Origin: Flavobacterium micromati
Lineage (GTDB): Bacteria; Bacteroidota; Bacteroidia; Flavobacteriales; Flavobacteriaceae
NCBI RefSeq assembly: GCF_900129585.1
Contig: NZ_FQWF01000006.1
Location: forward strand, 62,001 to 126,000
DNA: 64,000 nucleotides
Direction: 5' to 3'
Shown here: piece by piece, positions 53,652 to 55,844 of the stretch
Numbering within the stretch: the stretch's first letter is position 1
Layout of the letters: each line of letters begins with the position of its first letter
Made by a program: the position numbers and the translations under genes
Notes under the pieces: generated by a model
Databases searched by the model: none
What the model saw: the letters and a program-made list of their open reading frames with translations, nothing else
What the model was told of the DNA's origin: nothing

Positions 53652-55043
53652 ATGGGAATTACAAAAATATGTTGCATTGGCGCAGGATATGTTGGTGGAC
53701 CAACTATGGCAGTAATAGCACAAAAATGTCCTCACATACAAGTAACCGTTGTGGATTTGAATGAAGCTCGTATCGCAGCTTGGAATGATAAAGATTTAAG
53801 CCAAATACCAATTTACGAACCAGGATTAGATGTAATTGTTGGAGAGGCAAGAGGAAGAAATTTGTTTTTTTCGACAGATGTAGATAAAGCAATTGATGAA
53901 GCGCAAATTATTTTTATCTCAGTAAACACGCCCACTAAAACCTACGGAAAAGGAAAAGGCATGGCTGCTGACCTAAAATATATAGAATTATGCGCAAGAC
54001 AAATTGCAAGGGTTGCCAAGGATAATAAAATTGTGGTCGAGAAATCAACACTACCTGTGCGGACCGCGGAGGCTATTAAAAGTATTTTAGATAATACTGG
54101 GAATGGTGTGCAATTCCAAATCTTATCAAATCCTGAATTCCTAGCAGAGGGTACCGCTGTAGAAGATTTATTAAATCCAGATCGGATTTTAATAGGCGGT
54201 GACAGTACTGTTGAAGGACAAAAAGCAATACAATCACTCGTTAACGTTTATTCAAATTGGGTATCTGATGAAAAAATCTTAACTACAAATGTGTGGTCTT
54301 CAGAATTGTCAAAGTTGACTGCAAATGCTTTTTTAGCACAGCGAATTTCGTCTATCAATGCAATGTCGGAATTATGTGAAAAAACAGGGGCCGATGTTAG
54401 TGAAGTAGCAAAAGCCATAGGAATGGACAGTCGAATTGGCTCAAAGTTTCTGAAAGCATCGGTTGGTTTTGGCGGTTCTTGTTTCCAAAAAGATATTTTG
54501 AATTTGGTTTATATTGCCAAGTCGTATGGATTAAATGAAGTAGCTGATTATTGGGAACAAGTAATTATCATGAATGATCATCAAAAAAGACGATTTTCGG
54601 ATAAAATTGTTCAAACGCTTTACAACACCGTTTCAGGGAAGAAAATTACGTTTTTAGGTTGGGCCTTTAAGAAAGATACAAACGACACTAGGGAATCTGC
54701 CGCTATTTACGTGGCTGATGATTTAATCAATGAGCATGCAAATATCGCCGTTTACGACCCGAAAGTTTCTACAAATAAAATCATCGATGATCTAAATTAT
54801 TTGGAAACTAGAACAGCTGAAAAGAATGAAAATAGAATAAGTTGCTTTACAGATCCGTACCAAGCCTGCCATAATGCACATGCTATTGCCGTATTAACAG
54901 AATGGGACGAATTTAAAACTTTTGACTGGCAAAAGATTTACGATGCTATGCAAAAACCAGCCTTTATCTTTGATGGTAGAAATTTATTAAATGGAGCGGA
55001 ATTAAAAGCAATTGGATTTGTATATCATGGAGTAGGGGCATAA
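53652..55043 (+). CDS. ugd: UDP-glucose 6-dehydrogenase, animal/plant-like class
   Basis: Oxidises UDP-glucose to UDP-glucuronate. The 463-residue protein starts [21 protein letters not shown], has [15 protein letters not shown], the catalytic Cys in [17 protein letters not shown], and [18 protein letters not shown]. These blocks resemble human UGDH far more than the short bacterial UDP-glucose dehydrogenases, and the length matches except for the C-terminal tail of animal enzymes. Such forms are known in some Bacteroidota. A tandem heptamer array starts 3 nt after its stop. Confidence 0.93.
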
Positions 55044-55046
55044 TTA

Positions 55047-55262
55047 GGTACGAGGTAAAAGGTACGAGGTGCGAGGTTTGAAGTACGAGATACGAGGTAA
55101 AAGGAGGTATGAGGTAAAAGGTACGAGGTGCGAGGTTTGAAGTACGAGGTACGAGGTAAAAGGTACGAGGTAAAAAATATTTGGTACAAGGTATGAGGTA
55201 AAAGGTACGAGATATAAGGTACGAGATGCGAGGTGCGAGATTTAAGTTACGAGGTTCGGGGA
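55047..55262. repeat. Tandem heptamer array (GGTACGA-type)
   Basis: About 30 copies of a degenerate 7-mer, most often GGTACGA, GGTAAAA, GGTGCGA or GGTTTGA, run without break except for a 3-nt slip (about 55102-55104) and one AT-rich unit (about 55173). A block of about eight units starting at 55054 is repeated at 55113. All frames have stops, so it is not coding. Confidence 0.85.
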
Positions 55263-55376
55263 GGAAAAGAGTTAATAAAATGAACGGAATAGTTTAGTTC
55301 ACGATTTCGAATTCAAAAAAAGTAACTTCTAACAGATAACTTAAAACTGTCTCAACACATAAAAAAATAAAAAAGT

Positions 55377-55844
55377 ATGAATTGGTATGTAGTTTACACG
55401 AAACCCAAATGGGAGAAAAAAGTTGCAGAACAATTAATAAAGAGTGGTATAGAATGCTATTGTCCGTTAATAACTCAAGTGCGTCAATGGTCAGATCGCA
55501 AGAAAAAAATTGAAGTTCCGCTATTTAATTCTTATGTTTTTGTTCAATTAGAGGAATCCCAGCGGAATACTGTTTTTAGCGCTTCGGGAGTTGTTCGGTA
55601 TTTATTTTGGCTAGGGAAAGCTGCTATTGTTCGAGACGAAGAAATTAGCGTTATCAAAAAATGGTTGGACAATGCTGATGGAGCAGATATTTTGGTAGAA
55701 TCTATTAAAATTGGCGATGCTATAAAATTAGAATCGGGGCCTTTCTCTAATCAGAAAGCAGTTGTACAAGAGATCAATAATACGCATTATGTGCTAGTTT
55801 TAGAATCGTTGGGATGCGTTTTGAAAATAAAAAAGAAGTTGTAA
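55377..55844 (+). CDS. UpxY/RfaH-type transcription antiterminator
   Basis: A NusG paralogue of the UpxY group, which in Bacteroides lets polymerase read through the leader of its own capsule operon. The NGN domain begins MNWYVVYTKPKWEKKVAEQL and has CYCPLITQVRQWSDRKKK and PLFNSYVFVQL; a KOW-like end runs from about residue 115 (SIKIGDAIKLESGPFSNQK). It is 155 residues. Its place among polysaccharide genes strongly suggests local control. Confidence 0.9.
   Translation: MNWYVVYTKPKWEKKVAEQLIKSGIECYCPLITQVRQWSDRKKKIEVPLFNSYVFVQLEESQRNTVFSASGVVRYLFWLGKAAIVRDEEISVIKKWLDNADGADILVESIKIGDAIKLESGPFSNQKAVVQEINNTHYVLVLESLGCVLKIKKKL

Follow-up and report, generated by a model that had tools for sequence, protein, structure and literature searches.

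The array of seven-base units directly behind the ugd stop codon in Flavobacterium micromati is probably a tolerated member of a dispersed repeat class, lengthened by block duplication and having no dedicated role for the downstream upxY gene. The same consensus recurs in arrays behind unrelated genes elsewhere in the genome. Taken by itself, the ugd array is nothing unusual there, and it is not tied to upxY. Seven-base repeats of this poorly understood kind have been reported from other bacteria before. The importance is in that class, in which a period of 7 is singled out and a polarity rule relative to coding sequences is found in several phyla.

The array between ugd and upxY

A sequence-only reading had described about thirty heptamers right after a stop codon, between ugd and an UpxY gene, in strict 7-nt phase and with an internal 59-nt duplication. 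The number and the location proved correct (Table 1). A unit parse gave 31 units, including a few highly degenerate ones, and the first GGTACGA lies 3 nt past the ugd TAA. The units are of the RGTNNGA type, with GGTAAAA, GGTTTGA, AGTACGA and GGTGCGA as common variants. Tandem Repeats Finder reported period 7 at 55046-55239. The lag-7 self-match of 55044-55262 is 0.64, compared with a maximum of 0.41 among 2000 dinucleotide-preserving shuffles, and the array ranks above every other sliding 216-nt window of the 64 kb by this measure.

The 59-nt duplication was also recovered. Tandem Repeats Finder assigned period 59 to 55046-55175 (2.3 copies, 91% matches), and at an offset of 59 nt the array matches itself at 87% over 60 nt. 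Because 59 equals 8 x 7 + 3, the duplication produces a 3-nt phase break near 55103. The 7-nt phase is therefore real but not strict, being broken once at 55103-55105, and the final units are degenerate. As the genome is a draft, assembly may have affected the copy number of the array.

Table 1. Features in and around the array, in coordinates of the window (the whole 64,000-nucleotide stretch of DNA that was analysed). Gene calls are simple longest-ORF calls.
Feature	Position	Strand	Evidence
ugd, UDP-glucose/GDP-mannose dehydrogenase family	53652..55043	+	ORF; three UDPG_MGDP_dh Pfam domains; stop is the left edge of the array
Heptamer array, ~31 units, consensus GGTACGA	55046..55262	+	Tandem Repeats Finder, self-match, unit parse
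Two tandem 59-nt block copies within the array	55054..55171 (approximate limits)	+	Tandem Repeats Finder period 59; offset-59 match
3-nt phase break within the array	55103..55105	+	7-nt register shift
Array-free stretch ahead of the NusG-like gene	55263..55376	+	
NusG-like gene (UpxY type), downstream neighbour	55377..55844	+	Pfam NusG, E 4.5e-19

The distance from the array end to the upxY start is 115 nt, free of array sequence. The name UpxY for the downstream ORF is based on its NusG domain and on the capsule-type setting. A weak heptamer-like run is present on the minus strand at 55323-55348, directed away from the upxY start; its score of 6.6 is under every threshold used. Neither the array nor the array-free stretch behind it matched an Rfam family.

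Dispersal, period and polarity of heptamer arrays

A genome search for other arrays had been proposed in the sequence-only reading. With the array as query against 3.69 Mb in 40 contigs, such a search found the same consensus in eight other locations, of which two are separated by 0.8 kb, giving nine GGTACGA arrays in total. When the first two units are defined strictly, eight arrays start behind stop codons, at distances of 0, 3, 4, 8, 8, 9, 23 and 49 nt; the three farthest have looser or single units closer to the stop, at 0, 7 and 13 nt by eye. The ninth (contig C38) is antisense and, by eye, precedes the start of a QSregVF_b-type gene, assigned by domain match, by ~11 nt. The genes that carry arrays behind their stops are functionally unrelated. 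Among them are a gene with pyridine nucleotide-disulphide oxidoreductase domains (taken as lpd), one for a SPOUT methyltransferase (taken as rlmH) and one for a cyclophilin/FKBP isomerase. The nine arrays have 20 to 62 units each by the parse, in a search that favours long arrays. Used as a DNA query, the ugd array matched three genomes in a set of 60 relatives that included the window's own genome.

The period of 7 is not confined to one consensus. We scanned 1.52 Mb from seven genomes of the genus for arrays of any sequence: 720 kb came from the window's genome, 300 kb from G068, the closest relative read, and 100 kb from each of five others. The window and four stretches retrieved around known arrays were excluded; two arrays in contig C24 were known beforehand. 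Period 7 accounted for 28 arrays, six of which sit in one block of 223-nt repeats, and each of the other periods tested (4-13 and 15-20) for at most five. This block, at 60001-61300 of contig C22 in the window's genome (start of L235), is a tandem repeat with GATT heptamers in each 223-nt repeat. The consensus sequences vary and include GGTACGA, CAGTGTT, GATTNNN, GTTATCG and ATAGAAN among others. Outside the taxonomic family, 400 kb of four genomes held three period-7 arrays, all in G038. When only the 60 nt behind stop codons were considered, 13 of 351 such slots of the window's genome had period 7 and 0-2 had any other period, whereas among five further genomes of the genus period 8 (9/229) was no rarer than period 7 (5/229).

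The arrays are oriented relative to coding sequences. Among the 31 scanned arrays, two lie inside an ORF and the six of the 223-nt block lack an ORF on one side, leaving 23 usable, three of them from G038. The G-richer strand, on which G outnumbers C, has its 5' end nearer an ORF in 19/23 arrays (p 0.0026). The median gap to that ORF is 6 nt, versus 96 nt on the far side, and the near boundary is a stop in 14 arrays and a start, in antisense, in nine. A similar arrangement was found in public genomes, where exact GGTACGA x 3 was sought and 80 loci were analysed among at least 118 stretches. Among the matches listed, the loci outside Prevotella comprise 41 arrays, 11 inside ORFs and 30 intergenic, and the 5' end is nearer an ORF in 22 of the 25 with both ORFs known. 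Again among the matches listed, these arrays lie within 15 nt of a stop in 15/28 cases and of a start in 2/28, and farther away in 11/28. The 15 stop-adjacent arrays include loci from Maribacter, Dokdonia, Chryseosolibacter, Billgrantia, Arenimonas, Shewanella and uncultured Acidobacteriales and Holophagaceae. The loci titled Prevotella or Prevotellaceae (rumen Prevotella, among L069-L146) are unlike the other groups, with 39/43 GGTACGA arrays inside ORFs of at least 100 aa among the matches listed.

Two further properties were considered and are not claimed. For growth of arrays at the coding-sequence end, homogeneity was higher in 21 and lower in 9 of 34 in a partly hand-picked set (Wilcoxon p 0.013), and the figures were 10 and 10 of 23 in an unbiased set. 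For block copying between arrays at separate places, shared strings of 21-30 nt exceed the expectation from permuted unit order weakly.

Origin and possible function

Orthologues of ugd were found in 58/61 genomes of the genus, the window's counted, and the 29 best relatives were compared. In 20/29, an ORF of 154-166 aa (upxY size; domains not checked in each) begins 2-222 nt past ugd. Among these 20, an array-like run was seen only in G068, as ~50 nt of decayed GGTACGA units recognized by eye. Four of the 29, none of them in the group of 20, pass the period-7 threshold within 45 nt of the ugd stop, each with its own consensus. None of the 29 carries the GGTACGA consensus behind ugd above threshold, and none passes with the control periods 5, 6, 8, 9 and 10. 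The mean post-stop self-match over the 29 has no clear excess at lag 7 (0.356, with 0.358 at lag 14 and at most 0.344 elsewhere). Behind rlmH, the mean at lag 7 is 0.395, versus 0.281-0.303 at lags 4-6 and 8-11, and the threshold is passed by period 7 in 3/29 and by period 8 in 2/29. The post-stop slots of lpd orthologues have no period-7 signal (0/29 pass). Many lpd 3' ends consist, by eye, of a short spacer followed by a terminator hairpin; the array of the window's genome is placed between the stop and the hairpin.

The slot behind stops is also used by repeats of other kinds. A palindromic GTAGAGACGC repeat, unrelated to the array, lies within 16 nt behind a stop in 7/10 intergenic copies. 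This use favours tolerance of insertions at the site. After the lpd stop in L298, L302, L312 and L317, palindromic GTAGAGACGC-type repeats and their relatives occupy the position between stop and terminator, which is the heptamer slot. A GTCACGCT-type dispersed repeat has 0/13 copies within 16 nt behind a stop, and a third repeat has two of four copies near an ORF. The loci behind these counts include lpd orthologues and are not an independent sample.

These observations fit best with a neutral or tolerated repeat, the alternative that the sequence-only reading had itself allowed. The ugd array would be one copy of a dispersed class that occupies untranslated slots beside coding sequences, in most cases immediately behind a stop. 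We infer that the array began as a short heptamer run behind ugd, probably seeded earlier than the divergence from G068, and that it was lengthened in this lineage to ~216 nt by block duplication, which is visible in the array, and by slippage. More generally, runs may arise or land in the post-stop slot and survive there, and some may then expand. The array may persist because an insertion at this point is cheap, leaving the protein end, the terminator or the leader of the next gene intact. The nine arrays (eight behind unrelated stops), the period of 7, the polarity, the differing runs in relatives, the 59-nt duplication and the use of the slot by GTAGAGACGC all argue for this reading. However, tolerance alone would leave the period of 7, the polarity and the abutment on start codons (9/23 near boundaries) unexplained, and slippage would not give the fixed unit order of a 40-nt GATT element found in 20/61 genomes. 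Avoidance of the slot by GTCACGCT, the comparable abundance of period 8 in the post-stop slots of the five other genomes, and lag spectra that lack a clear period-7 signal behind ugd and any such signal behind lpd orthologues also count against it.

A function in the untranslated region is unlikely. It would require that the arrays provide a 7-nt-periodic RNA platform beside the coding sequence, bound by an RNA-binding protein and protecting or insulating the mRNA end. The polarity rule and the close abutment on coding sequences are consistent with such a role, as is the uneven variation of the unit across the nine arrays (46% non-consensus at position 4, 44% at position 5 and a minimum of 5% at position 7, in a parse weighted to the core). 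Sense RNA of the array also folds better than shuffles (z -3.26) and antisense RNA does not (z -0.06). However, the helices are short, with ~4-5 pairs, and since GTAC is self-complementary within the unit, we judge the folding to be a by-product. Most orthologous 3' ends lack an array, the consensus varies among families and species, and the genes concerned are unrelated, all of which argue against such a platform.

Active copying of short heptamer elements to the edges of coding sequences by some process, with the long arrays as their expanded form, appears still less probable for the array studied here. The clearest candidate for such an element is the GATT element. Allowing one mismatch, the string GATTAACGATTTTTGATTTCAGATTT is present in 20/61 genomes of the genus, with 22 copies in the window's genome (partly clustered) and 29 in G079; the reversed GATTAACGATTTTTGATTTCAGATTT control occurs in 0/61. 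An alignment of 35 copies with distinct flanks is conserved from about -14 to +25 and falls to background beyond, which defines an element of ~40 nt made of six GATTNNN heptamers in a fixed order. Of 32 copies with a usable 5' ORF, 24 begin within ~16 nt of a coding-sequence edge (18 stops and six starts), compared with 8.6% expected for intergenic points chosen at random. The p value of 1e-19 for this placement is overstated, as some copies are orthologues in different species; not all copies are therefore independent insertions, which weakens the case for copying. Copies of the element (L371-L400; contigs C22, C24, C25, C34 and others in the window's genome) stand against stops or, in antisense, against starts. 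The distribution of GGTACGA points in the same direction, as three units with up to two mismatches are found in 5/148 Bacteroidota genomes, the window's counted, and the reversal in 0/148. On the other side, a search of the genome for RVT_1 reverse transcriptase gave no match, and none of its five Y1_Tnp genes has a clear array adjoining; a single weak run is present in L402, and in L405 a GGTACGA-like match of two units lies 33 nt past the stop of the transposase gene. At 1450-3329 of L401, a Y1-type transposase ORF is followed by two ORFs with cas1- and cas2-like starts, as judged by eye.

For the genus as a whole, it is conceivable, if rather doubtful, that short fixed-order heptamer elements have been copied around the genome and set precisely at coding-sequence edges with a fixed polarity, the long arrays being their expanded form. 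If so, the period of 7 and the placement at coding-sequence edges would be properties of the dispersal process, shared across phyla. The occurrence of several families with differing consensus at the same orthologous 3' ends, together with the fixed-order element, makes the origin testable by strain comparison within the genus.

The sequence-only reading had also suggested that changes in copy number could act as a slow switch for upxY expression. Length does vary, as the much shorter run in G068 demonstrates, but the switch itself is very improbable. The same arrays follow unrelated genes, 19 of the 20 relatives with an upxY-sized ORF near ugd have no array seen there, 115 nt of array-free sequence separate the array from upxY, and a sigma-70-type scan, which does not cover Bacteroidota-type promoters, found no promoter-like site on the sense strand. 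Least credible is a G-quadruplex of the kind proposed for Xanthomonas and Nostoc heptamers. The 25 non-overlapping GG in the 217 nt of the array (G 80, C 17) speak for it, but the array has only one G run of three or more, at 55258, and other families of the genus with single-G units (GATTNNN, CAGTNNT) are still found at coding-sequence edges.

Relation to known repeats

Four long repeat strings had no match in the literature searched, which did not cover bioRxiv. Tandem 7-nt intergenic units are known from cyanobacteria as the heptanucleotide STRR repeats, which the arrays resemble by description and which have sequences other than GGTACGA. The array is unlike the palindromic unit of REP/RAYT systems, as its helices are short and a scan of the array and the array-free stretch found no terminator-like site or hairpin.

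The closest parallel is with the G-rich heptamers GGGAATC of Xanthomonas and GGGGA(T/C)T of Nostoc, which have many dispersed intergenic copies (Rehm et al., 2015; PMC4692102). They lie nearer the ORF on their 5' side irrespective of its orientation, many of them 0-50 bp past a stop on the coding strand, and differ in length between related species. The study reports no function, describes the functional role as still to be elucidated, proposes G-quadruplex formation by tracts of three or more G, and notes a preference for four units. The arrays described here share the 7-nt unit, the many dispersed intergenic copies and the closeness to the 5' ORF, seen above in 19/23 scanned arrays and in the eight of nine GGTACGA arrays behind stops. 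They differ in that GGTACGA units contain at most GG, and in that the arrays are longer than four units, at least in a search that favours long ones. They also differ in having several unrelated consensus families under one position rule, in a Flavobacterium-type organism.

Direct repeats of TAACTGA have been described in Beggiatoaceae, Cyanobacteria and five Bacteroidetes, and in a Beggiatoaceae genome they are mostly just upstream of starts in forward orientation (MacGregor, 2015; PMC4679880). These repeats resemble the present arrays in having 7-nt intergenic units, in forming long arrays in some Bacteroidetes and in being missing at the same place in close relatives. Unlike them, the ugd array has the unit GGTACGA and is 115 nt from the downstream start. 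TCAGTTA, the reverse complement of TAACTGA, resembles the CAGT family of the genus and not the ugd array.
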